DNA of 44,349 nt from Tyzzerella sp. (lineage in GTDB: Bacteria > Bacillota > Clostridia > Lachnospirales > Lachnospiraceae). Under the pieces are notes generated by a model that was given only the letters and a program-made list of their open reading frames with translations, made no database searches and was not told where the DNA came from. Both the position numbers and the translations under genes were made by a program. Below are positions 28,347-41,585 of this stretch, one piece after another (position 1 is the stretch's first letter; every line of letters starts with the position of its first letter). The DNA lies in NCBI GenBank assembly GCA_017416155.1, contig JAFQDE010000018.1, positions 1-44,349 of the forward strand, read 5' to 3'.

Positions 28347-29215
28347 AACAGCCGACACTTGGCAATCCGCAAAATACAATCGAAATATTGCAAAAATACA
28401 GTTTTTCCTTTCAGAAGAAGTTCGGCCAGAACTTTCTGATAGATACACATGTGCTTGATAAAATCATTGCGTCTGCAAACATCACAAAAGACGACATGGT
28501 ACTCGAAATAGGACCGGGAATCGGAACGATGACGCAGTATCTTGCGTGTGCGGCAGGGAAAGTGGTGGCGGTTGAAATTGATAAAGCACTCATTCCAATT
28601 TTGGAAGATACATTAAGTGCTTATGATAACGTGACGGTTATTAATGAGGACGTGTTAAAGGTAGATATCAATCAATTAGCCAAAGAGTATAATGGTGGAA
28701 AACCAATCAAGGTAGTTGCTAATCTTCCGTATTATATTACAACACCGATTATTATGGGACTATATGAGAGTCATGTGCCAATCGAAAGTATTACAGTAAT
28801 GGTACAGAAGGAAGTGGCAGACCGCATGCAGACAGGCCCGGGAAGCAAGGATTACGGTGCATTATCTCTTGCAGTTCAATACTATGCTGAGCCGTATATC
28901 GTGGCAAATGTACCACCGAACTGTTTTATGCCAAGACCAAATGTGGGATCAGCAGTTATCAGGTTGATAAGTCATAAAAAGCCGCCTGTTCAGGTTAAGG
29001 ATGAACAGTTGATGTTCAAAATTATCAGAGCTTCCTTTAATCAGAGAAGAAAGACTTTGGCAAACGGACTTAACAACTCGCCGGAGATTCAACTTCCGAA
29101 GGAAGTAATCATCGGCGCGATAGAGAGCCTTGGGAAAGGTGCGAGCATCAGAGGTGAGGCTTTGACACTTGAGGAGTTTGCAAAATTAAGTAATACAATT
29201 AGTGAGATGTTATAA
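28343..29215 (+). CDS. rsmA: 16S rRNA dimethyladenosine transferase
   Basis: The 290-residue KsgA enzyme dimethylates A1518 and A1519 in 16S rRNA. It has the N-terminal FGQNFLID, SAM motif LEIGPGIGTMT, acidic VAVEIDKA and catalytic NLPYYITTP, then a C-terminal region with PRPNVGSAVIRL and ASFNQRRKTL. Its ATG overlaps the tatD stop codon. In many Firmicutes rnmV (RNase M5) lies between tatD and rsmA; it is absent here. It ends the metG operon ahead of a shared terminator. Confidence 0.97.
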   Translation: MKQPTLGNPQNTIEILQKYSFSFQKKFGQNFLIDTHVLDKIIASANITKDDMVLEIGPGIGTMTQYLACAAGKVVAVEIDKALIPILEDTLSAYDNVTVINEDVLKVDINQLAKEYNGGKPIKVVANLPYYITTPIIMGLYESHVPIESITVMVQKEVADRMQTGPGSKDYGALSLAVQYYAEPYIVANVPPNCFMPRPNVGSAVIRLISHKKPPVQVKDEQLMFKIIRASFNQRRKTLANGLNNSPEIQLPKEVIIGAIESLGKGASIRGEALTLEEFAKLSNTISEML

Positions 29216-29252
29216 AAATAAGAAAAGCGGAATCATATGAGTGGTTCCGCTT
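29212..29252 (-). terminator. Bidirectional terminator between rsmA and the sensor kinase
   Basis: AAGCGGAATCA (29225-29235) pairs with TGGTTCCGCTT (29242-29252), with one G-T and one T-G pair. On the minus strand it is followed by TTCTTATTTTT and ends the kinase transcript. The plus-strand side has a weaker T content. Confidence 0.75.
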
Positions 29253-29264
29253 AATTACTTTCTA

Positions 29265-30587
29265 TTATAGATTTAACATAAACGACACACAGAACAGCTC
29301 ACCTTTTGCATCTGCAGAAAAAAATCCATTATATCGTTCTACAATCTTTTTGGCGGAGTTCACCCCAATTCCATTTCCGGTTGGTTTAGTTGTGAGAAGT
29401 TCGCCATTTTTATTTTTCTTAATGATATTTTCAAATGTATTATCGATAGTAAAAACGAGTGAATGTGAATCCCCGTCTCCTTTTACAACAATACGTCGTT
29501 TTTCGTTTTCCTGTGTAACACAAGCATCTACTGCATTTTCCAGTAGGTTTCCGAGCAACACTGAAATATCATGCTCGTCCACAGGCATATCCTGTGAGAT
29601 GGCAACCTGCACCTGAAAATCAATCGCATGTTTTTTGGCTTGAGTGGCAAAAAAGAGCAAGATATTGTTAACAATGTGATTCTCACAGAAACGAACATGG
29701 TCGACATCAGGAATGGAATTGCCGTAGGCACGGACATATTCCTCAAGTTTATCATATTCCTTCTTTTCAAGATAATAACCAAGCATATGTATATGGTGTC
29801 TTAGGTCATGTCGCATGCGTCTAGTTTCATCAATACGCTCTTTTAGTGACTGATAACCAACATACTCCAAATCACGATAATGCTGTTGTTCTTCTAATTC
29901 AAGATTTTTTGCAAGTTGTCCATCCAACTTTAGCATGATGTAATAGATGAGAAGTGCACCAAAATTAATAATAAAAAGGAATATAACATTGTTTGGATCT
30001 TGAATGTTTTCAAGACCGGTTCTGGTGCCGCCGTTAATCTGGTATTGCCATATAATGTAGAAGACAGAAGGTACAATCCAATAGTAATACCATTCGTTTC
30101 CTATAAGAGGATTGCGTAGCATCGGCACAAAGTAGCGCCTTACTTCCAATCCCCAAGGAATTGTGATAACCAGATGCAGAAGTATCATCACAACAGATGA
30201 GTGCCAACAGTAAAGGTGATGGGCGATACCAGGAAACAGATTTCGTTCAATGCACACCGCAGCAACCAGAATGAAATTACCAAGATTGGCGTAAATGAGT
30301 TCTATAAACAAAACCTTTCCAAACTTCCGATCAAACAGGATGGCATACCCACTTATAAATATAATAAGTCTTATGATACTCATTATTACACTGGTATTAA
30401 TCCCCATCATTGCAGACCAGTATCTGGTAACAAATTGGATGAGAAAAAGAAACATACATCCTGCAATGGTAATCCATTTATGAAAACGTTGATATTGACG
30501 GAATACATAGTAGGACATGATTACATAAGGTGCGAAATTACAGAACGCAAATAATAGTATCTCAAGAGTTCGTGGTAATGTAAACAT
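29265..30587 (-). CDS. AgrC-like sensor histidine kinase (GHKL ATPase)
   Basis: This 440-residue membrane kinase has six or seven hydrophobic segments in residues 1-220, as in AgrC/ComD peptide sensors. A coiled region follows, then the dimerisation segment RRMRHDLRHH with phosphorylatable H260, the N-box NLLENAVDAC (347-356) and the G-box TGNGIGVNSAKKIVE. It should sense an extracellular ligand and phosphorylate the adjacent LytTR regulator. Its ATG overlaps the regulator's stop codon (TAATG). No agrB-like peptidase or agrD-like peptide gene is visible nearby, so the signal is unknown. Confidence 0.9.
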   Translation of the reverse strand: MFTLPRTLEILLFAFCNFAPYVIMSYYVFRQYQRFHKWITIAGCMFLFLIQFVTRYWSAMMGINTSVIMSIIRLIIFISGYAILFDRKFGKVLFIELIYANLGNFILVAAVCIERNLFPGIAHHLYCWHSSVVMILLHLVITIPWGLEVRRYFVPMLRNPLIGNEWYYYWIVPSVFYIIWQYQINGGTRTGLENIQDPNNVIFLFIINFGALLIYYIMLKLDGQLAKNLELEEQQHYRDLEYVGYQSLKERIDETRRMRHDLRHHIHMLGYYLEKKEYDKLEEYVRAYGNSIPDVDHVRFCENHIVNNILLFFATQAKKHAIDFQVQVAISQDMPVDEHDISVLLGNLLENAVDACVTQENEKRRIVVKGDGDSHSLVFTIDNTFENIIKKNKNGELLTTKPTGNGIGVNSAKKIVERYNGFFSADAKGELFCVSFMLNL

Positions 30588-31294
30588 TAGTTTCCCCCCT
30601 TCCGCATCTCTTCAAAACGAAAATGTGCATAAGCTTCCAGAGCATCCTTAGCTTTTCTTCTGCTTATCGGAACCTGCTCGCCGTTTTTTAAAACGAACAT
30701 TCCGTCTTGGGAACATTCTACTTCATGGAAGTTCACTACGAGTCCTTTCGAACAGCTATATAAAAAGTTATATTCTGCAAGAATTGATTCCCATTCCATT
30801 TGTGACATGCGGGTTTGTAAAGATGCGCGTTTTTTGGAATGAATAATAATCGTATGATTATAGTATTCTGTATATGTAATGTTGCGAAGCACAATCTTTT
30901 GTCCGTCAGGCAGTGTAATGAAGCGATTCATTTCGTAATCATCCAGACGAATCATCTTCAGCATTCTCTGGAAGCTGCTTGTAGAAACAGGCTTCTGCAG
31001 GTAATAATTCGCACCCACCTCATAGCTTTCGCTGGCAAATTCATTGCTGGTAGTACAGAACACGATGCGCACATCCGAATCCGTTTCACGCACCTTTCGT
31101 GCCACATCGACTCCAAGCATTTCTTCCATGTAGATATCGAGGAGGATAAGGTCATAAGTATTGTTTTCCCAATCCTTTAAAAAAGTTTCTCCGCTTGAAA
31201 AAAATGAAACTTCAGACTGAGGCAACTCATTGTCTACAATGTCTAAAAGAATTTGAAGTTCTTCCGGCGTATCATCCACTAATGCAACTCTCAT
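30587..31294 (-). CDS. LytTR-family response regulator
   Basis: The 235-residue regulator has a receiver domain (1-115) with the acidic pair D7-D8, phosphoacceptor D53 in LLDIYM, and K101 in YLQKP. A LytTR DNA-binding domain follows (about 130-225; FITLPDGQKIVLRNITYTE to QVPISRRKAK). Such regulators bind direct repeats spaced two helical turns apart and control surface proteins, bacteriocins or virulence genes. A matching repeat lies upstream at 31366-31395. The -10 box is a perfect TATAAT. It is first in a two-gene operon with the kinase. Confidence 0.93.
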   Translation of the reverse strand: MRVALVDDTPEELQILLDIVDNELPQSEVSFFSSGETFLKDWENNTYDLILLDIYMEEMLGVDVARKVRETDSDVRIVFCTTSNEFASESYEVGANYYLQKPVSTSSFQRMLKMIRLDDYEMNRFITLPDGQKIVLRNITYTEYYNHTIIIHSKKRASLQTRMSQMEWESILAEYNFLYSCSKGLVVNFHEVECSQDGMFVLKNGEQVPISRRKAKDALEAYAHFRFEEMRKGGN

Positions 31295-31328
31295 ATCGGG
31301 TTATCTCCGTCTAAAAATTGATATGTTT

Positions 31329-31357
31329 ATTATACGCCTCAAAGAAAAGAATAGCAA
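31329..31357 (-). promoter_or_regulatory. Promoter of the regulator-kinase operon
   Basis: On the minus strand TTGCTA (31357-31352), a 17-bp spacer and a perfect TATAAT (31334-31329) lie 35 bp upstream of the regulator start. Confidence 0.82.
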
Positions 31358-31365
31358 GTTTTTGA

Positions 31366-31395
31366 CCGCTTGAGTCGTAAATTTGCCGTTTGAGT
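31366..31395. promoter_or_regulatory. Direct repeat, probable LytTR binding site
   Basis: CCGCTTGAGT (31366-31375) and CCGTTTGAGT (31386-31395) are repeats with one mismatch whose starts are 20 bp apart, about two turns. The similarity extends a few bases further (TCGTAA and TACAA). LytTR regulators such as AgrA and ComE bind direct repeats of about 9 bp with similar phasing. The site lies 8 bp from the -35 box of each divergent promoter. Confidence 0.7.
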
Positions 31396-31409
31396 TACAA
31401 CTATTGTAA
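31395..31409. repeat. Inverted repeat over the -35 of the adhesin operon
   Basis: TTACAA (31395-31400) and TTGTAA (31404-31409) are perfect arms around CTA. The right arm is the proposed -35 box, and the left arm overlaps the end of the second direct repeat unit. It could be a second operator or chance in AT-rich DNA. Confidence 0.45.
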
Positions 31410-31433
31410 AGCAAAAACTTGTAGTGTAATAAT
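31404..31433 (+). promoter_or_regulatory. Promoter of the pseudo-receiver/adhesin operon
   Basis: TTGTAA (31404-31409) is followed at 18 bp by AATAAT (31428-31433) with an extended -10 TG (31425-31426). The weak hexamers fit an activator-dependent promoter. A strong AAGGAGGT site (31448-31455) follows. Confidence 0.55.
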
Positions 31434-31461
31434 AGAATCAGAAATGTAAGGAGGTGTGGAT

Positions 31462-31836
31462 ATGGATGTATTAATCTATGGAAACGCAACAGAGAAGGAA
31501 CTTCTCATACAACATTTAAAATCAGAAGCGTATATGGCATTTCGGATGGTCCGATATTCACACGCAGAGGATTATGACACATATTTAAAAAAATTAAGGA
31601 GTCATGAATTTGACGTCGTATTTGTCATGGCAGACAATGCGGCAGGCATGGAGGGAGTTATCGCAGTACAGAATGTGCATCCCGATGTGCCGATTGTCTG
31701 GTTCTCCAATGATAAAAATTTTGTGGCGCAATCTTATCGTTTGGGGGTTGCCTACTTTGCAGTAAAACCAATCGACGAAAAAACAGTAAGCCTGGCAATT
31801 AAGAGATGTCAGCGAAGGGAGGAAATGGCGATATGA
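31462..31836 (+). CDS. Degenerate receiver-domain protein
   Basis: This 124-residue single-domain protein resembles the receiver of the divergent regulator (PIVWFSNDKNFVAQSYRLG versus RIVFCTTSNEFASESYEVG; AVKPI versus LQKPV). The conserved lysine is kept (K102), but the acidic pair at the start is replaced by Y6-G7-N8 and the phosphoacceptor slot by M56 (FVMADN), although D58 is close. Normal phosphorylation is therefore unlikely. The start is ATG 31462 with AAGGAGGT 6 nt upstream; the GTG at 31456 touches that site. It overlaps the giant surface protein gene (ATGA), so it is translated with it. A regulatory or partner-binding role is inferred. Confidence 0.85.
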   Translation: MDVLIYGNATEKELLIQHLKSEAYMAFRMVRYSHAEDYDTYLKKLRSHEFDVVFVMADNAAGMEGVIAVQNVHPDVPIVWFSNDKNFVAQSYRLGVAYFAVKPIDEKTVSLAIKRCQRREEMAI

Positions 31837-34800
31837 GAAAAAACAGCATTTTAAAAACAAGAAAAGGCAAGATAGGGGCAGCAGTTATAGCAATGGTTTT
31901 AGTAGTAGCTATGGCCATTGGATTGATACCAAACAATACAGCGAGTGTGCTTGCTGCTGATAAAGTATCTGATTATGGAACAGAGACAAAGTACACAGAG
32001 TCACTTGGCGACAATGCTTCTACAGAATACTCAGGACGTATCTGGACAGATAAATCCGTATATTCTGACAGCGTAACATTTGATTTGTTTACAGAAGAAG
32101 GTCAGGCACAGAAAACAGCGACAGTGAGTAAAGATGACGACTCAGATTTCTTGATTGCGTTTTCTGCACTCGGAACTACACAGTCAGTTTCCGGTCAGGC
32201 ACAGGCACCTGTTGACGTAGTCTTCGTAATTGACATGTCTGGTTCCATGAGACAGAACAGCATGGGCAACAAAACTCGTATGGGACGCACCATAGACGCA
32301 TTAAATACCGCTATCGAGACTCTTCTGGCAGGAAATGAAAACACAAGAATCGGTGTAGTTGCATTTAGCGGGGAAGCGCAGGTGTTGTTGGAACTAGATC
32401 ACTATACAAAGTTGAATAATCAGAACTTTTTCTCTACAAATTCACGCGAGACCAGTATTTATACACGCGCAGTAGGTGCTACAAAAGGAACAATTAACAA
32501 AACGATAACCACTTCTTCCGGAACTAATATCCAACGTGGTATTTTCGATGGAATGAATATGCTGGCAACGGAAGATGAGACAACGGCTAGTGTTGATGGA
32601 CAGACAATTCCAAGAACTCCTTCTGTAGTCATTTTATCTGATGGTGCTCCGACAATCGGTTCCGATTATCAGAGCTGGTGGGATTTGTCCGGAGACACAA
32701 AAGATTATGATTATGATACGGAAAGAGCTCTCTATGGTATGCAGGCCATTATGACAGCGTCCTATATGAAAGACGCCATAGACAGAAATTATAGATTGAC
32801 AGGAACAAATACAACAAAAGTATACACTATTGGAATGGGTATTGATTCGATTTCCGGTACTGCAGGGCAGATTGCGAGAATCACCATTGATCCGCTTAAC
32901 CATCTGAACGAGAACAATACTATCGCACAAACGGTTCGTAATGCTTGGAATACATACAACAATGGTGGAACACCTAGTTTAGGCGGGAATAGAAACAATT
33001 ATACATTCCGTCATCCAAACACAGGACATGATATTGACAGTATCGTATACAATGATGCTTATTACAGTGCAGATAACGCACAGGAAGTAGTGGATACCTT
33101 TGAAGCCATTGTTTCAAATATCACAATCAGTGCACCGCAGATTCCTACGGAAGTAAAAAATCCGAATGCAATTGATGCGGATGGTTATATTACATATACA
33201 GACCCGTTAGGCGAATATATGGAAGTAAAAGACGTAAAGGCAATCAGTTATGCGGGAACTGTATATACGAAAGAAAATAGTACAAAGACAGTTAAAACAG
33301 TCAGTGGAACAGAGACCACATATGAGTTTGCGGCAGCAGTTCACAGTGCAATTTACGGGGACCAAAATCTGAAAAACATCTTAATTACGGCAAAAGAAGA
33401 TGCGAACGGAATGGAAACGCTTACTATTAAAATTCCGGCATCCGTTATTCCTGTTCGAGTTAATACGGTAGTATTAAATGCAGACGGAACAGTGAAAACA
33501 CACACGAATAATGGCGCATATCCGGTACGCGTATTCTATACGGTAGGATTAAAGAACGGCATTATCGAAAACAGAGTGGTTAAAGTTGGAGATGGCGGTG
33601 TATCAGAAGAATATGTCTTGGAAAACTCTAATGCAGATGGTTCTGTAAACTTCTACAGCAACTTATTTACCGGGGAAAACGAAGTCATCGTTCTAGATAA
33701 TGGTATGGAAGTTCATAAGAAAGTTGGAAACGCAACGGTAGAGTTTGAACCATCTCATACCAATCCATTTTACTATATTATAGAAGATATGCCGATTTAC
33801 AAGGATGAGGCAGGGACAACGCAGGTTAGAGCTACAGAGGGAATCGACGAGGGAACGACTTATTATTACAAAAACACTTATTATCATGGTACTTCTGTTG
33901 AAGAAGAGCACTTGGCACGTACCGGCGCACAACTGTTAAAGACGGATATTATTGAAAAAGACGGTTATCTTTATCGTGCAAAAGGGTCTCCGCGCCTCAA
34001 CCGTATCATGGAATTTGAAGGTGAGAAGCTTGACAATCATACAGAGACAGCGGAAGATTTCTATGCACCGACATTTGCATACGCTTCGGGTAGCACAGAC
34101 CCATATGATGGTAGATTTGTAATCTATCTTGGAAATAACGGTGTGATTTCTGCGATGGCTGGTGGAAATCTCAAAATCAAAAAGGATGTGGTGATACCGG
34201 ATGGATTAAACCCATCTACAGCTGAATTTGAATTTACAGTTAATTTCAATGGCAGCAGTCAGGTAGACGGTACATATGCGTATAATGTATTAGATGCAAA
34301 TGAAGTTGTCCTGGAAAACAGAGGCGGCACAATCACAGATGGCGGAAAACTTAAATTAGCAGGCGGAGAAACAGCGATCATTCGAAACATTCCAAGAGAT
34401 ATTACTTATGAAGTAGTAGAGACTGAAGCAAATGCAAACGGATTCACAACAACTGTTTCAGGTGTGACAGGAACGATTGCAGCAGGAGAAACAAAAGAAG
34501 CAATCTTTACAAATACATATGCAGTGCAAACAGTTATCGTTGGTGCAAGTGATGGCTTCCGAGTATCAAAGACATTAACCGGCAGACACTGGAATGAAGA
34601 TGCATTTACGTTCATCTTAGAAAGTGTAAGTTCAGATGCACCGATGCCAAGCGGAAGTACAAATGGAGTGAAGGAGATTACCATTCAAGAAGAGGCCAAT
34701 GATGATTATCAAGTAAATACACCTATAGAAAAAGCGTTTGGTAATATCGAATACAATAAACCTGGCACATATGTTTATACAATTGCAGAAAAGATGCCGG

Positions 34801-37800
34801 CATCGGCAACAGAGTATCTTCCGGGTATATCATATTCAGGTGCAATTTACAGAATTGAAGTTGTTGTAACAGATAATGGTGCAGGCCAATTAGAAGCAAC
34901 GACAACCATGATTCGTACAAATGGTGACGACGGAGCATTAGATAACAGTACATTGCCGGATAACAGTGAAATCGCAGCGTTTGTAAACGATTACGACGCA
35001 CAGAGTACTGCGTGGACACCGGTCGGAACAAAGCATTATGAGGATTTATCAGGAAGCAATCCGATGACAGCACGCATGTTCCAGTTTAGAATCAGACCAA
35101 TCGGCGCGAACGCAGCGGATGCACCGATGCCGACAGGCTCATCAGGAACAGGCGTTGACAGATATTACGACTCTAATAATATCGGCACAGAGATTGCTTA
35201 TCCGCAAATTGTATTTGAACACAGACATGCAACCACAGGCGGAACAACCTATACATATGAATTTTCAGAAGTAAATACAAACAAACCGGGTGTTACATAT
35301 GATGATTCTACTTATACAGTAACAGTTGTTGCAAAACTTGACAGCACAACAAATGCAGTGCAGTTGGAAGTAAGTTATGTGAAAGATCATGCCAGCGGAA
35401 CTTACAGTCGTGTGGAATTCTCGAATAAGTACAAAGCAACATCTGTAACGGCAGACATTGTTGGAAGTAAGACTTTAACAGGAATTACGCCTGCAAATGC
35501 AGATGATTTCAAAGTAAAAATTGAAGCGGCGGATGACGCAACAAAGACTGTTCTTGCAACAGCGGATACAGTTGATATACCGGATTCCGTAATTAACAAA
35601 GCAAATACATTTATCATAGCAGATGATTTGGAATTCACAAAACCGGGAACATATGTATTTAACGTAAGCGAAGTAAATGCAGGCAAAACTATTGAGGGTA
35701 TTACTTATGACTCACATACAGAAGTCGTAACAGTGATTGTTAGCGATAATGGCGGAGCACTTATCGTAGATAGCATTACTTATAGCAATGGAAGTGTAGA
35801 AAATGCGGCATTTGCTAACACATACAAATCTGCATTTACAGGTACACCAATTAGTTTGGCAGGAACAAAGAGTTTAACCGGACGTGATATATTAGAAGGT
35901 GAGTTCTGGTTTGCAGTTGTGCCACAGGGAAATGCACCGGCAGGAAGAGCAAGTATTGTATCTGCAACAACTGATGGGAAAATTCAACTGCTTACAGATG
36001 TAATCTTTACATCTGTAGGAACTTATGAATACTGGTTCTATGAACACATTCCAACAACAGCAGTCAATAACATTCAAAATGGTGTAACATATGACACTAC
36101 TGTTTATAAATATGTGATAGAAGTAGAAGATAACTGGGACGGAACTATTGAAGTGAAGTCACAAAAGCTTTACAAGGCAGACGGAACAAGAGATGCACAA
36201 GGAAACGTATCTGTAGCAGCGGGAACTTGGGGAAGGGAGTTGACAGGTAGTGACAAAGAGGTTGTGTTTAAAAATAAATATACAACAGAATCGTTATCAC
36301 TTGTTGTTCCGACACTTCAGAAGGTACTTGAAGGATATAGAAAAGAAGGCTTAAAAGAAAATGAGTTCCAATTTACCATGAGTGTGAAGGCTACTACATC
36401 AAAAGGAGCACAGATTTCGGAAGCAGAGTTGGATGACTATATTACTTTGAATAATCAGGTACAAGATGCAACAAAGGGACTTTTAGGCACAGTTTCCAAC
36501 ACAGCAGACGGAAGCATCCGGTTTGGATCAGTAGCATTCCGCAAACCGGGACATTATATTATTACATTTGAAGAAGTAATACCATCAGACAGTAATAAGG
36601 TAAAAGGTGTAACTTATACAGAACAAAAATTGGTAGCTGAATTCAATGTTACAGATAATGGACTTGGACAATTAGTGGCAGAACTACAGAATCTCCACGG
36701 AAATTATCAGTTTACAAACACTTATGTGTCAATGGGAACGGTTCAATTGACAATTGAGAAGATTCTCACAGGTCGTGAGTGGAAAGACACAGACGAATTC
36801 CAGGCAGAGGTTGTAATTCTTGACCCAACAACACAGGAAGCAGTAGATGCAGGAGAAATCGTATTCCCTTCTGACGCTGACGGAATTCAAAAAGTTACAC
36901 TTACAAAAGCTAAGAAGTCTGTGACATCGCCGAAAATCGAGATTCTCAAACCAGGAACCTATAAGTTTGTAGTGCGTGAAGTGACAGGAAGCATTCCTGG
37001 TGTAAATTATGATTCTACAAGATATGACGTAATTACAACAGCGACAGATAATGCGGATGGCACATTGACAATTGTAACAAATATTACAGACAATAAGATT
37101 ACATTTACGAATGTTTACGATGCACAGTCTACGGTATTGTCAGGACACGACAATCTTTGGGTTGAAAAAGAATTTACAGGTCGCGAAGGTGACAAGTGGT
37201 TAGATACAGATGTATTTACATTCACTTTGGCACCGGCAAATGCAGCAACAGAAAAAGCTGTGACAGATAATGATGTTGAATTTACATCAACAACCTTAGA
37301 AGTAACAAATGCAAACAAAGCACATGCGCACTTTGGTGCAATTACATTCCATAAAACAGGAATATATACATTTACGGTTACGGAAGCTGCAAGTACAAAA
37401 CCATACATTGTACATGATAAGGATAAAGATCGCACAGTTATCGTAGAAGTGAAAGATGATGGAGAGGGCAATCTGGTTGCCACATTGGCAGCAAACAGTG
37501 AGGCTCTCAAATTCACAAACACGTATATTGCGGAAGACGTTACCTTAGAAGGTGCGACGAGCTTAAAGGTAGAGAAAGTTCTCACAGGACGCAATTGGTT
37601 TGACAGTGACTCTTTCCGATTTACATTAAAAGCAGAGACTGAAGACGAAGTAAAGGAAATCGATTCTATCTCTACAAGTAAGGCAGTTGAAAAAGGCTAT
37701 GTAGTACTGCCAAGCAATGCTAACGGAATCATAATTACAAAAGCAGACTTAAGTGGTAATGCCTATACAAAAGCATTTGGAGATATTGTCTTCAAGGAGA

Positions 37801-40361
37801 CAGGAACATATCAATTCCGAATCAAAGAAACAAAAGGCAATATCGACAATGTGAAATATGATTCGCACGAATGCATAGTGACTGTTGTGGTAACAGACGA
37901 CAATGAGGGACATTTGGTAGCAACACCATCTTATTCCGGCAGTAAAGTATTTGAAAACATATATACACCAGACCCTGTAACAGCTACATTGACAGGAGTA
38001 AAGGTATTAAACGGACGTGATTTGAAAGCGGGCGAATTCAGATTCCACATTGAAGTGGCAGCCGGTTCTGCAGCAAACACACCATTGCCGGCAACAAGGA
38101 CAATTGCAAATGATGCAGACGGAATTGTTAAATTTGCAACTATGACATATGCAAAAGCTGGAACTTATAAGTACACCATTTCTGAAATCAAAGGACATCT
38201 TGCAGGTGTGACATATGATGAAGTGGCAGTACAGGCAATTGTCAAAGTAACATACGATGACACAACAGGTCTTCTGACACCGGTGGTTTCTTACGAGAAG
38301 GGAACTGTTGGTACTAAGTTTGAGTTCGTAAATACGTATTCAACAAAACCGGTTGGAGTGACAGATATTAATGCACTTAAAACAGTATCAACTACACATG
38401 GAGCAGGGTATGACTTGAATGGAAATGATTTCCGATTTGAGATTGAACCATCTGCAAGCAATCCACAATCTGATCCAATGAAGAGAGGATTTGTATATAA
38501 TGACACACATGGTATTATAACAATCTTTGATGGTGTGGTATATACGGAAAAAGGAACATATGTATACACAGTTCACGAAGTAGATGGAAATCGTGCGGGT
38601 ATCACATATGACGATTCCGTATACACGATTACGGTGAAGGTAACGGATGATAATTCTGTGGCGAAATTGAGTGCTACTATCAGCATTACAAAGACAAAAG
38701 GCGGCAAGACCACAAATGTGAATGAGATTGAATTTAATAACGAATATGATGCACAATCAGCAACAGCAGTTATTCACGGTCACAAGACATTGGAAAGTGA
38801 ACATAAAAACTTGGAAGCAGGCGAATTCCAATTTGAAATCACCGCAGTTACAGCGGGAGCTCCAATGCCGGCAGATACCGTAGTGACAAACGCAGAGACA
38901 GGACTCTTCCAATTTGATGTAATTACTTATAATAGAGTAGGAGAATACAAGTACAAAGTTCGCGAATTAATTCCTGCAGCAGCAGTAAACAATACATTAA
39001 ATGGAAAAACTTATGATTCAAGAGAGTATACAGTAACTGTAAACGTTGAGAACGATCAAACTGCAGGGGCATTGAAAGCAACGGTAGTTGGGGTTGTAGA
39101 TACTAGTAACAATCCTATAATCATATTTAAGAATGGTTATGTTCCAAATAAGGTTGTTTTAGAAGGTAAAACAGCAATTCAAGGAAAGAAAACATTAACC
39201 GGTCGTGATATGAACGCGAGGGAATTTAAGTTTGAACTTACAGCAATCACGACAGGAGCGCCGATGCCTTCCAATGCGGCAAATGGAGTTGCAACTGCAG
39301 AAAACAGCGGAAAGGGAGCAGAAAGTGCATTTGCATTTGAAGCAATTACATTTACAAAAGCAGGAGAATATTTGTACAACATTACAGAGAAGGCTATGGG
39401 TAAAGGTGGTGTAACATACGACACTACAAACTATGTGGCAAAGGTTGTTGTGACGGATAAGGGTTACGATGGACAGTTAGACGCAAAAGTCACTTATTAC
39501 AAAGATAATGGTGAAACGGCACTCGAATTCAATAACTTTTACAAGGCAGACCCTGTTGGATTAATTCTTGGCTTGACGAAGAGATTAAATGGGCGCGAAT
39601 TAAATAGAGGTGAATTCACATTTACAATCAAGGCCATTACAGCAAATGCTCCAATGCCAATGGATGAAGATGGTAAAATAGCAGATACCTCAACAAATAC
39701 AGATTCCGGAGAAGTTAACTTTGCTGAAATTATATACAACAAAGCAGGAACTTATGAGTACGAGATCTCTGAAGTAAAAGGCTCTGTACCGGGAGTAACT
39801 TACGATGAGAGTGTATATAAGATTACGGTAATTGTAACGGATAATCTGGAAGGAAACTTGGAGGCAAAAGCAGAAGGCATTGACAATCTGGTATTTACAA
39901 ATATTTACAAAGCTGCGCCTACAACTGCACAAATTAAAGCAATCAAGAAGTTGACCGGTCGTGATTTAAAAGCGGGCGAATTCAGATTCATCTTAGAAGA
40001 TAAAGATGGCAATAAGATTTATGCAGTAAACACAGCAGATGGAGCAATCATATTTGAAGATATTACTTATACGGAAGCAGGAACATACACATATAAGTTG
40101 TATGAAGAAAAGGGCGATGCAAAGCATGTGAAATATGATGATACAGTTTACACCGTTACAGTAGTGGTGGAAGATGACCTTAATGGTTCTCTCCGTGTAA
40201 ACAGTGAACTTAACGCAGACAACTTTGCATTCAACAATGCTTATGAGAAACCGACAGTGATTCAAACAGGTGATTCAACAATGATCTTTGCAATGATGGC
40301 AATGCTTGTATTATCAGCAGGATACATTGTAGCGTCTATTTCAAAGGCACGCAGAAGATAA
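31833..40361 (+). CDS. Giant VWA and pilin-isopeptide repeat surface protein
   Basis: This 2,842-residue protein is probably a long surface fibre or adhesin. It has a signal peptide (1-41, ending SVLA). The VWA domain (about 115-430) has a complete MIDAS: DMSGS at D134, T231 and D270. A linking region reaches about 775, then one Cna-like module. Fourteen modules of about 135 residues follow (about 900-2805), resembling streptococcal FctA/Spy0128 pilin domains. Most start K-x-L-x-GR, contain a Glu near YTISE and end F-x-N-x-Y: the Lys, Glu and Asn of self-formed isopeptide bonds. The end is Q2811-TGD, a membrane helix and RRR, a sorting-like signal lacking LP. No sortase gene is in the window. 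The start is ATG 31833 with GGAGG upstream; an earlier in-frame ATG at 31806 lies within the preceding gene. Confidence 0.93.
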   Translation: MRKNSILKTRKGKIGAAVIAMVLVVAMAIGLIPNNTASVLAADKVSDYGTETKYTESLGDNASTEYSGRIWTDKSVYSDSVTFDLFTEEGQAQKTATVSKDDDSDFLIAFSALGTTQSVSGQAQAPVDVVFVIDMSGSMRQNSMGNKTRMGRTIDALNTAIETLLAGNENTRIGVVAFSGEAQVLLELDHYTKLNNQNFFSTNSRETSIYTRAVGATKGTINKTITTSSGTNIQRGIFDGMNMLATEDETTASVDGQTIPRTPSVVILSDGAPTIGSDYQSWWDLSGDTKDYDYDTERALYGMQAIMTASYMKDAIDRNYRLTGTNTTKVYTIGMGIDSISGTAGQIARITIDPLNHLNENNTIAQTVRNAWNTYNNGGTPSLGGNRNNYTFRHPNTGHDIDSIVYNDAYYSADNAQEVVDTFEAIVSNITISAPQIPTEVKNPNAIDADGYITYTDPLGEYMEVKDVKAISYAGTVYTKENSTKTVKTVSGTETTYEFAAAVHSAIYGDQNLKNILITAKEDANGMETLTIKIPASVIPVRVNTVVLNADGTVKTHTNNGAYPVRVFYTVGLKNGIIENRVVKVGDGGVSEEYVLENSNADGSVNFYSNLFTGENEVIVLDNGMEVHKKVGNATVEFEPSHTNPFYYIIEDMPIYKDEAGTTQVRATEGIDEGTTYYYKNTYYHGTSVEEEHLARTGAQLLKTDIIEKDGYLYRAKGSPRLNRIMEFEGEKLDNHTETAEDFYAPTFAYASGSTDPYDGRFVIYLGNNGVISAMAGGNLKIKKDVVIPDGLNPSTAEFEFTVNFNGSSQVDGTYAYNVLDANEVVLENRGGTITDGGKLKLAGGETAIIRNIPRDITYEVVETEANANGFTTTVSGVTGTIAAGETKEAIFTNTYAVQTVIVGASDGFRVSKTLTGRHWNEDAFTFILESVSSDAPMPSGSTNGVKEITIQEEANDDYQVNTPIEKAFGNIEYNKPGTYVYTIAEKMPASATEYLPGISYSGAIYRIEVVVTDNGAGQLEATTTMIRTNGDDGALDNSTLPDNSEIAAFVNDYDAQSTAWTPVGTKHYEDLSGSNPMTARMFQFRIRPIGANAADAPMPTGSSGTGVDRYYDSNNIGTEIAYPQIVFEHRHATTGGTTYTYEFSEVNTNKPGVTYDDSTYTVTVVAKLDSTTNAVQLEVSYVKDHASGTYSRVEFSNKYKATSVTADIVGSKTLTGITPANADDFKVKIEAADDATKTVLATADTVDIPDSVINKANTFIIADDLEFTKPGTYVFNVSEVNAGKTIEGITYDSHTEVVTVIVSDNGGALIVDSITYSNGSVENAAFANTYKSAFTGTPISLAGTKSLTGRDILEGEFWFAVVPQGNAPAGRASIVSATTDGKIQLLTDVIFTSVGTYEYWFYEHIPTTAVNNIQNGVTYDTTVYKYVIEVEDNWDGTIEVKSQKLYKADGTRDAQGNVSVAAGTWGRELTGSDKEVVFKNKYTTESLSLVVPTLQKVLEGYRKEGLKENEFQFTMSVKATTSKGAQISEAELDDYITLNNQVQDATKGLLGTVSNTADGSIRFGSVAFRKPGHYIITFEEVIPSDSNKVKGVTYTEQKLVAEFNVTDNGLGQLVAELQNLHGNYQFTNTYVSMGTVQLTIEKILTGREWKDTDEFQAEVVILDPTTQEAVDAGEIVFPSDADGIQKVTLTKAKKSVTSPKIEILKPGTYKFVVREVTGSIPGVNYDSTRYDVITTATDNADGTLTIVTNITDNKITFTNVYDAQSTVLSGHDNLWVEKEFTGREGDKWLDTDVFTFTLAPANAATEKAVTDNDVEFTSTTLEVTNANKAHAHFGAITFHKTGIYTFTVTEAASTKPYIVHDKDKDRTVIVEVKDDGEGNLVATLAANSEALKFTNTYIAEDVTLEGATSLKVEKVLTGRNWFDSDSFRFTLKAETEDEVKEIDSISTSKAVEKGYVVLPSNANGIIITKADLSGNAYTKAFGDIVFKETGTYQFRIKETKGNIDNVKYDSHECIVTVVVTDDNEGHLVATPSYSGSKVFENIYTPDPVTATLTGVKVLNGRDLKAGEFRFHIEVAAGSAANTPLPATRTIANDADGIVKFATMTYAKAGTYKYTISEIKGHLAGVTYDEVAVQAIVKVTYDDTTGLLTPVVSYEKGTVGTKFEFVNTYSTKPVGVTDINALKTVSTTHGAGYDLNGNDFRFEIEPSASNPQSDPMKRGFVYNDTHGIITIFDGVVYTEKGTYVYTVHEVDGNRAGITYDDSVYTITVKVTDDNSVAKLSATISITKTKGGKTTNVNEIEFNNEYDAQSATAVIHGHKTLESEHKNLEAGEFQFEITAVTAGAPMPADTVVTNAETGLFQFDVITYNRVGEYKYKVRELIPAAAVNNTLNGKTYDSREYTVTVNVENDQTAGALKATVVGVVDTSNNPIIIFKNGYVPNKVVLEGKTAIQGKKTLTGRDMNAREFKFELTAITTGAPMPSNAANGVATAENSGKGAESAFAFEAITFTKAGEYLYNITEKAMGKGGVTYDTTNYVAKVVVTDKGYDGQLDAKVTYYKDNGETALEFNNFYKADPVGLILGLTKRLNGRELNRGEFTFTIKAITANAPMPMDEDGKIADTSTNTDSGEVNFAEIIYNKAGTYEYEISEVKGSVPGVTYDESVYKITVIVTDNLEGNLEAKAEGIDNLVFTNIYKAAPTTAQIKAIKKLTGRDLKAGEFRFILEDKDGNKIYAVNTADGAIIFEDITYTEAGTYTYKLYEEKGDAKHVKYDDTVYTVTVVVEDDLNGSLRVNSELNADNFAFNNAYEKPTVIQTGDSTMIFAMMAMLVLSAGYIVASISKARRR
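38016..38045 (+). repeat. 30-bp direct repeat, copy A (within the adhesin gene)
   Basis: CGTGATTTGAAAGCGGGCGA continues as ATTCAGATTC and encodes GRDLKAGEFRF. It matches 39960-39989 with 29 of 30 bases, 1,944 bp (648 codons) away and in the same frame. Confidence 0.85.
39960..39989 (+). repeat. 30-bp direct repeat, copy B (within the adhesin gene)
   Basis: This is the second copy of the repeat at 38016, differing at one base (TTTAAAAG versus TTTGAAAG). Recombination between the copies would remove five modules in frame. Confidence 0.85.
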
Positions 40362-40538: not shown

Positions 40539-41585
40539 ATGTCATTTCAAGAAGAAAAACGAGAACTTATTAAACGTTACATGTTGGAAAAGATTCGCTT
40601 AGATGATGTGGAATTCATTCAAAAGACAACCTATAATTTTCAAATATCAGTTACAACGGTAAAGCGTTATATACAAGAATGTTTGCAAAAAAATATAATT
40701 TTTGCAGATATAAGTGCAGAGTGCGGATATCGATTAAAGAAGGGAGAATATTTTTTTCAATACGCTATAAAAGATGGTTTGGATGAGGACGCAATTTATT
40801 ATGACGATATTTCTCCGTTATTGCAGAATGTTTCAAATGAGTCAAAGCGTATTTGGAGATATGCTTTTATGGAAATGATGAACAATGCTATCGAGCATTC
40901 CAGATGTGAGAGTATATATTGCCGCGTTGTAATAGATGATCTTTATACAGAGATTACGATTACGGATGATGGAGTTGGTATTTTCAAACATGTGCAGAAT
41001 TATTTAACACAACAGTTAGGTAGGAAAGCGACATATCAGGATGCATTGACAGAATTGTATAAAGGTAAATTGACGACAGCGCAGCAAAATCATTCCGGAG
41101 AAGGTATTTTTTTTAGTTCTAAGGCTTTGGATGAATTTGCCATTTGGTCTGACAACACGGTTTATGTTCAGCGCGTATTAGAGAGAGCCAAATTTATACA
41201 AGACCATCTGATTGCATATTATACAAGATTAAAACATATTGGAACAGCAGTCATGATGAAATTGGAGAATCGAACAAGCAGAGTGCTGAGGGAGGTGTTT
41301 GACATGTATTCTACAATAGATGATGGATTTGTTAAGACAAGAATTCCAATTAAGGAGGTATGTCAAGAAGGTGAGCCGATTGCCCGGTCTCAGGCTAGGA
41401 AAATTTTATATAGATTAGAACAGTTCCGGACAGTAGAATTGGATTTTGGCGGAGTTGATTTTATGGGACAGGGATTTGCAGATGAGGTGTTCCGTGTGTT
41501 TAAAACCCGGTATCCTGAGATACAAATTATTGCATTGAACGCATGTCCCGATATTTTGAGAATGATAAAACACGTGCAGAGATAA
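40539..41585 (+). CDS. HTH, histidine-kinase-like ATPase and STAS-like (DUF4325) regulator
   Basis: The 348-residue protein combines three parts. Residues 1-65 look like a helix-turn-helix (QISVTTVKRYIQECLQK). Residues 85-205 hold a GHKL ATPase with N-box FMEMMNNAIEHS, DDGVGIF and HSGEGIFFSS, but no His phosphoacceptor region. Residues 270-345 resemble DUF4325, a STAS-like domain (VELDFGGVDFMGQGFADEVF). The combination recalls anti-sigma kinase and antagonist pairs fused into one chain with a DNA-binding head. It may be a soluble transcription or partner-switching regulator; its target is unknown. It has its own promoter and an AAGGAG site. Confidence 0.82.
   Translation: MSFQEEKRELIKRYMLEKIRLDDVEFIQKTTYNFQISVTTVKRYIQECLQKNIIFADISAECGYRLKKGEYFFQYAIKDGLDEDAIYYDDISPLLQNVSNESKRIWRYAFMEMMNNAIEHSRCESIYCRVVIDDLYTEITITDDGVGIFKHVQNYLTQQLGRKATYQDALTELYKGKLTTAQQNHSGEGIFFSSKALDEFAIWSDNTVYVQRVLERAKFIQDHLIAYYTRLKHIGTAVMMKLENRTSRVLREVFDMYSTIDDGFVKTRIPIKEVCQEGEPIARSQARKILYRLEQFRTVELDFGGVDFMGQGFADEVFRVFKTRYPEIQIIALNACPDILRMIKHVQR

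Follow-up and report, generated by a model that had tools for sequence, protein, structure and literature searches.

We have identified a conserved family of single-domain receivers without the phosphoacceptor Asp, here called pseudo-receivers (PsRs), which is genetically tied to LytTR response regulators. One member lies in a contig of Tyzzerella sp. (GCA_017416155.1, JAFQDE010000018.1), and the whole analysed stretch of 44,349 nucleotides is referred to as the window. Our comparison strongly indicates this family and its tie to LytTR regulators, and also that the PsR operon is usually preceded by a tandem repeat with a period of about 20 bp, such as LytTR proteins bind. We regard the PsR-LytTR module as well supported. 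With a confidence just short of even, we consider PsR to be a dedicated third component of the LytTR two-component system, which acts back on the regulator through pairing of the two receivers; the pairing and its sign are what we infer from the module.

In the window, a minus-strand GHKL kinase and LytTR regulator are opposed to a plus-strand operon of PsR and a giant protein with VWA and FctA domains (Table 1). The sequence-only reading had described this divergent arrangement, together with a receiver lacking the phosphoacceptor Asp and an ATGA overlap that joins its gene to the surface-protein gene, and our analysis bore out each of these points. The window PsR carries Met56 in the Asp slot, along with Trp80, Arg93 and Phe99. 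The kinase has six hydrophobic segments, and a kinase stands at the equivalent position in two further loci (L024 and L025). With a GHKL kinase and a REC-LytTR regulator that keeps its Asp, the window has the components of a LytTR two-component system of the AgrA/ComE type. The surface protein shows the repeated FctA/strep_pil_rpt architecture of Spy0128-like proteins, with FctA domains in 14 stretches (803 bits, Pfam) and TIGR03786 in 13. For candidate Lys-Asn isopeptide bonds with their Glu, and by regular expression only, F-x-N-x-Y ends 15 segments, and a Y-x-Y-x-I-x-E-like motif occurs in 13 of the 14 segments after the first. No Rfam match to a structured RNA was obtained in 29100-32100. 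On the 3' side of the surface-protein gene, positions 40539-41585 encode a protein with DUF4325 (STAS-like) and HATPase domains, and in L024 a relative stands at the matching place, with an extra gene before it.

Table 1. Features of the PsR locus in the window. The promoter consensus scan of the region returned 12 sites, against 10.5 in shuffled sequences.
Feature	Position	Strand	Basis
GHKL-family (AgrC-like) sensor histidine kinase, 440 aa	29265..30587	-	Pfam HATPase_c_5 59 bits
LytTR response regulator with intact phosphoacceptor Asp, 235 aa	30587..31294	-	Pfam Response_reg 73 bits, LytTR 34 bits; alignment
Putative promoter of the regulator-kinase operon, TTGCTA-17-TATAAT	31329..31357	-	Consensus scan only, 10/12 matches
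Putative LytTR operator, tandem direct repeat CCGCTTGAGT-N10-CCGTTTGAGT, 20-bp period	31366..31395	+	Sequence pattern
Putative promoter of the PsR operon, TTGTAA-18-TG-AATAAT	31404..31433	+	Consensus scan only, 9/12 matches
Single-domain pseudo-receiver (PsR), 124 aa	31462..31836	+	Alignment, structure model
Surface protein, 2,842 aa	31833..40361	+	Signal-like N terminus, VWA, DUF7601, 14 FctA, sorting-like C terminus

We aligned 27 PsRs with 22 receivers of neighbouring LytTR regulators and 11 background receivers, the latter picked with an Asp-motif filter. A 94-aa truncated PsR (G295c) and a 96-aa fragment that stops within the matched stretch (G308) are not among the 27; duplicates of kept rows (L065, G318, G201, G024 and L058/L059) were left out, and a short frame with a stop that gave no readable ORF (G407) stands outside the PsR counts. 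The Asp slot was never Asp in the 27 PsRs. Each of them carries Trp at the T-2 position, which was found in none of the 33 aligned Asp-bearing receivers. When 27 further distinct full-length receivers matched by the PsR model were read without any filter, three of them being neighbours of PsRs themselves, all kept the Asp and none had the Trp. The PsRs also have a beta3-alpha3 loop shorter by two residues, Ser in place of Thr in 23 of 27 and Phe in place of Tyr in 26 of 27. Arg is found at the end of alpha4 (Arg93 in the window) in 25 of 27, and the same position is Glu or Asp in 10 of the 22 neighbouring regulators. Charge complementarity between Arg93 and Glu was considered as a rule and not upheld, the position being acidic in only these 10 regulators.

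The window PsR shows the (beta-alpha)5 receiver fold in a well-formed predicted structure. It has lost the acidic pair, of which one residue is retained in some other PsRs, and PsRs do not have the combination of phosphoacceptor Asp and acidic pair that marks REC domains. They class as Asp-less receivers (PsR/ALR), relatives of receivers without the residues for phosphotransfer. None of the five PsRs tested passed the Pfam cut-off. In the IQ-TREE tree, in which several PsRs sit on long branches, a single branch (UFBoot 96, SH-aLRT 58, 96% of bootstrap trees) separates the PsRs from the other receivers, which favours a single origin over repeated decay of local regulators. Among three congeners, pN was 0.15-0.19 for PsR, 0.16-0.23 for the regulator, 0.26-0.35 for the kinase and 0.38-0.47 for the surface protein. 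PsR is the most constrained of the four genes in this comparison and is under strong purifying selection.

Relatives were sought by the PsR sequence, and short frames were followed up regardless of their neighbours. PsRs occur in at least 18 of 397 genomes of the family-level sample, one of them as a fragment (G308), and, by score, in 3 of 10 genomes of the genus sample. The matches fall mostly in Lachnospiraceae. They include metagenome-assembled genomes labelled Tyzzerella (deer-gut), Ruminococcus, Roseburia, Ruminiclostridium, Lachnospiraceae and Oscillospiraceae, as well as Hominifimenecus microfluidus, Blautia sp. MSJ-9 and Diplocloster agilis. At E<=1e-15, a threshold that would miss weak members, we saw no other short frame without the Asp among 391 Clostridia genomes of a class-level sample. 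Ten genomes besides the window's own matched there; the short frames of two (G454, G755) keep the Asp, and the other eight matches are long frames that were left unread. A scan of viral contigs found no relative. Fusions of PsR to a receiver were looked for by frame length among the matches listed, of which the longest that we noticed (G089, 493 aa) retains its Asp.

A LytTR regulator, called by sequence and frame length, is adjacent to or one gene away from 24 of the 27 PsR genes. It is divergent for 22 PsR genes (21 loci). Blautia and L067 have both genes on one strand, in L067 with the kinase between PsR and the regulator. The three PsRs without a LytTR gene alongside are those of G315, G198 and L066, the last of which is cut by the contig end. 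Of the neighbouring regulators, 23 could be read; every one retains the Asp and is matched by a LytTR profile made for this analysis, nine of them also by Pfam. The 18 PsR-bearing genomes hold 178 LytTR domains over about 72 Mb, from which we calculate a chance of about 1% that a random gene stands this near to a LytTR gene. The only LytTR gene found in G009, the only one in G172 and both in G254 adjoin PsRs, and other PsR-bearing genomes have up to 22 LytTR domains. The distances among PsRs correlate with those among their regulators (r 0.79 over 21 pairs, reached in 0 of 5,000 permutations), a value that is uncorrected for shared species history. A kinase gene, recognised by profile or by eye, lies near PsR in about 21 of 26 loci.

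Several loci depart from this plan. In a Roseburia-labelled genome (L062:4300-5800), the regulator ends after about 75 residues and is followed by a kinase-tail-like reading, while the PsR and the 20-bp repeat are retained; either a genuine deletion or an assembly fault may account for this remnant. In G090 (L129:10279-11017), the PsR gene overlaps an ORF for a stand-alone LytTR DNA-binding domain (Pfam 43 bits), which has its own ribosome-binding site GGAAGGAG and looks like part of a split response regulator. At L128:9893-10309, a PsR without a LytTR neighbour lies between metG- and tatD-like genes, and this neighbourhood (metG, tatD and ksgA by reading) matches that of the window locus. A further, recurrent variant (L026:12445-16579, L127:9419-13403, L133:11623-15737 and L152:9703-13765) has a secreted-looking protein of about 690-740 aa behind the regulator, together with a larger sensor kinase. 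Three of these four loci contain a PsR, and none was found in the 20 kb of L152.

In 17 of 26 loci, the gene behind PsR codes for a large protein (683 to >3,300 aa) that begins with a signal-like stretch. In this tally, secretion was called by eye from a signal-like N terminus, and two loci with an unreadable next gene, one because the stretch reads N (G172) and one because of the contig end (L066), were not scored positive. The first reading frame stops early in two of the loci, after 752 aa in L060 and 697 aa in L062, and a long one comes behind it. The sequence-only reading had made its case depend on PsR recurring, rather than being absent, beside related regulators and surface proteins in other genomes, and the counts for both neighbours do not refute it. 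Its tie between PsR and a giant adhesin proved frequent but not defining. On the one hand, seven of the 26 loci have no large secreted protein next: in Blautia, PsR precedes the genes for the regulator and kinase and no giant gene comes after it; in Diplocloster and G282, it heads what reads as an exopolysaccharide-type operon; and it is followed by a hybrid-kinase-like protein (by reading) in G166, a stand-alone LytTR gene in G090 and other genes in G180 and G198. On the other hand, the surface proteins have unrelated architectures. VWA/FctA is found in the window and L067, SLH/YDG/choline-binding in G305 and G254a, LRR/List-Bact/Big_2 in G079, YDG in Hominifimenecus and fn3 in G371, and nothing was recognised in G295a or the fragment locus G308. 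The LytTR regulator is a steadier partner of PsR than the giant surface protein.

The cargo genes also show that PsR can be exchanged. Surface-protein genes of G305 and G315 share 90-99% DNA identity over 5,688 of 7,017 bases, and the similarity starts just past the PsR stop. Their PsRs match over only 34 residues and belong to different subfamilies, so PsR does not follow its cargo. In a PsR-less locus of G242 (L151:8862-13623), a secreted-looking protein of 1,259 aa is opposed to a LytTR regulator and kinase like those of the window, and the spacer contains a repeat of 20-bp period (10/11). This sister locus shows that regulator and surface protein can occur together in the absence of PsR. 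Taken together, the shared cargo of G305 and G315 and the PsR-less locus of G242 suggest a core circuit of regulator, operator and surface protein, to which PsR is an added and exchangeable layer. A role of PsR as a cargo-specific chaperone is disfavoured, since cargo architectures are unrelated and G305 and G315 have most of a cargo gene in common and not the PsR. L122 and L123 carry largely one surface-protein gene in two genomes with different PsRs. Their neighbours read like relaxase, replication and recombinase genes, and the arrangement resembles a mobile cassette in which the regulator is exchanged.

For the putative operator, we took the best self-match of 11-mers at each offset from 12 to 40 in 19 divergent PsR-LytTR spacers and in 73 control spacers of the same loci. 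The mean at offset 20 was 9.16 in the 19 spacers, compared with 6.2-7.1 at other offsets. The control spacers were flat (6.8 at offset 20), and 2,000 length-matched resampled draws reached at most 7.84. Offset 20 was best or joint-best in 15 of 19 spacers and in 12% of controls. Taken singly, 9 of 19 spacers passed a shuffle test at p<0.05 at offsets 20-23, the best offset being 22 in Diplocloster and 21 in G079. The spacers of G295b and L062 fit the 20-bp period (10/11 and 9/11), those of G254b, G295a and G090 were unremarkable against shuffles, and offset 20 is not prominent in Blautia, L066, L067, G315 and G198. The sequence of the repeat varies among loci, while its spacing holds.

This behaviour is as expected of LytTR operators, in which spacing and not sequence is conserved and the repeats lie mostly 12 bp apart, in some cases 11 or 13, just upstream of the -35 (PMC6193735). 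In the window, the sequence has the pattern of a tandem-repeat operator with a period of about 20-22 bp just upstream of the -35, and the putative -35 of the PsR operon begins 8 bp past the end of the repeat. The window repeat by itself is no more than suggestive (shuffle p about 0.07). With as many as three mismatches allowed, its motif has one site each in G000, G002 and G009, always at the promoter of the PsR operon, and the reversed control motif has no site in these genomes; this suggests that the regulator is devoted to that promoter, the genomes searched being 65-88% complete.

In our preferred reading, the kinase would phosphorylate the LytTR regulator, which would then dimerise, fill the two half-sites and turn on the operon of PsR and surface protein. 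PsR would be made first from this operon and would pair with the receiver of the regulator via its beta4-alpha4-beta5 side. Considering that PsR has no DNA-binding domain, a mixed pair would hold only one half-site, and rising PsR would damp the promoter. Such negative feedback may cap the output of a very costly surface protein. The sequence-only reading had proposed that PsR titrates either the kinase or the regulator and so closes a feedback loop. Titration of the regulator is the leading hypothesis, and the kinase is the less likely target. The sign of the feedback is the least certain step, as pairing could instead stabilise the active regulator. In its fullest form, the proposal is that an Asp-less PsR with the Trp signature, made from the operon that the regulator activates, limits that regulator through heterodimers at the 20-bp-period operator and is portable between cargoes, as one kind of Lachnospiraceae governor for many giant surface structures; this we put forward as a possibility with some way to go to an even chance.

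The face by which PsR makes contact bears on the choice of partner. PsR is most conserved in beta4 and alpha4 and least in beta2, alpha1, alpha2 and alpha5. However, the neighbouring regulators, which must dock the kinase, are also low in alpha1 and alpha5, and the PsR peak includes buried core. PsR conservation is therefore weak evidence for the choice of a face, and it does not decide between the two partners. For the same reason, low conservation of alpha1 is no objection to a role of PsR on the kinase, as a decoy receiver that occupies the phosphotransfer surface or damps autophosphorylation, with the feedback one step earlier. The kinase gene is a common neighbour, as noted above, and binding competitors of such a kind have been proposed for PsRs (PMC12632262). 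Considering that the regulator is the more constant neighbour, and that in G295b a divergent LytTR gene is intact beside PsR while the stretch after it reads no kinase, we think a role on the kinase unlikely.

Another reading has PsR at work outside the two-component pair. It may, for instance, be an adaptor that uses its alpha3-beta4-alpha4 face, as FrzS does with SgmX (PMC12632262), to set the place or pace at which large surface structures are made or exported. This would suit its position at the head of surface-protein or exopolysaccharide-type operons and the overlap of its gene with the surface-protein gene in three congeners. It is hard to reconcile with one cargo gene occurring with different PsRs, with the unrelated cargo architectures and with Blautia, where PsR is followed by the regulator and kinase and not by a surface gene, and we consider it improbable. 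The genetic evidence for negative feedback would serve equally for PsR as a ligand sensor or positive co-factor that stabilises the active LytTR dimer, giving a positive loop. In G090, PsR overlaps the gene for a stand-alone LytTR DNA-binding domain, as if the two acted together, and the LytTR regulator HdrR autoactivates (PMC6193735). A partner without a DNA-binding domain would more readily be a damper at an operator of two half-sites, and we give the positive loop a small chance. Finally, PsR has lost its catalytic residues as a decaying, functionless duplicate of the regulator's receiver would, but strong purifying selection on the most conserved of the four genes among three congeners, the invariant PsR-specific Trp, the well-formed predicted fold and the presence in 26 loci make such a relic hardly credible, and we rejected it on the selection result.

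Several known systems come close to this locus. CmrRST of Clostridioides difficile likewise encodes an Asp-less receiver protein, CmrT, with an ordinary kinase-regulator pair that is its presumed partner (PMC12632262). CmrT is an OmpR-family regulator (PMC12548384) and therefore has an output domain. In contrast, the window PsR, at 124 aa, is a receiver only, its neighbour is a LytTR regulator, and it heads the other, divergent operon. WhiI and BldM of Streptomyces both carry DNA-binding domains, unlike PsR. Their heterodimer is similar in that an atypical receiver protein pairs with a regulator and alters its output (PMC12632262).

The LytTR Regulatory Systems HdrRM and BrsRM resemble the locus in their tandem direct repeats and in a modulator dedicated to the LytTR regulator (PMC6193735). 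Their regulators are paired with a membrane inhibitor and no kinase, whereas the window has a kinase, a regulator with a phosphorylatable receiver and a PsR without a membrane segment. AgrC-AgrA and ComD-ComE combine a kinase with a LytTR regulator as in the window. The kinases AgrC and ComD are of the same type as that of the window, and to our knowledge PsR is not a part of these systems. BlpS, from the bacteriocin system of Streptococcus gallolyticus, keeps a LytTR domain and has no receiver, which is the reverse of PsR. In that four-component system, as here, extra regulator parts have been added to a LytTR two-component system (PMC8545106). AgrA binds two direct repeats (PMC4227749). The FrzS pseudo-receiver of Myxococcus xanthus acts by protein contact through its alpha3-beta4-alpha4 face; its target is type IV pili at the cell pole, and it is not described there with a LytTR pair (PMC12632262).

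Pseudo-receivers, LytTR systems and FctA surface proteins are each already known, and Asp-less or phosphorylation-independent proteins that partner regulators have precedents in CmrT and WhiI-BldM (PMC12632262). The text of that paper does not contain the terms 'LytTR' or 'single-domain', nor does PMC4395418 contain 'LytTR' or 'Clostridi'. Among the titles and abstract openings of the matches listed from open-licence full texts, none presented a receiver-only PsR in LytTR loci or before surface-protein genes. A PsR beside a LytTR pair, often before a giant surface protein, suggests an undescribed feedback part. The family offers a clean setting: the PsR is receiver only, one candidate partner is adjacent, the operator is predicted and the output is visible. 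Many genomes repeat this arrangement, and loci without a PsR or with a swapped one serve as natural controls. Work on it would reveal how giant surface proteins are rationed by gut Lachnospiraceae, and would give a name to small genes that Pfam misses as receivers.

Some genomes carry more than one PsR. G295 has three copies (L119, L120 and L121): one is truncated, and the other two adjoin LytTR genes and secreted-looking proteins that are paralogous (683 and 713 aa, 81% identical). In G254, two different PsR genes stand in tandem before one surface protein of 2,254 aa (L127:7632-8580), and the same genome holds a second, separate PsR locus (L126).
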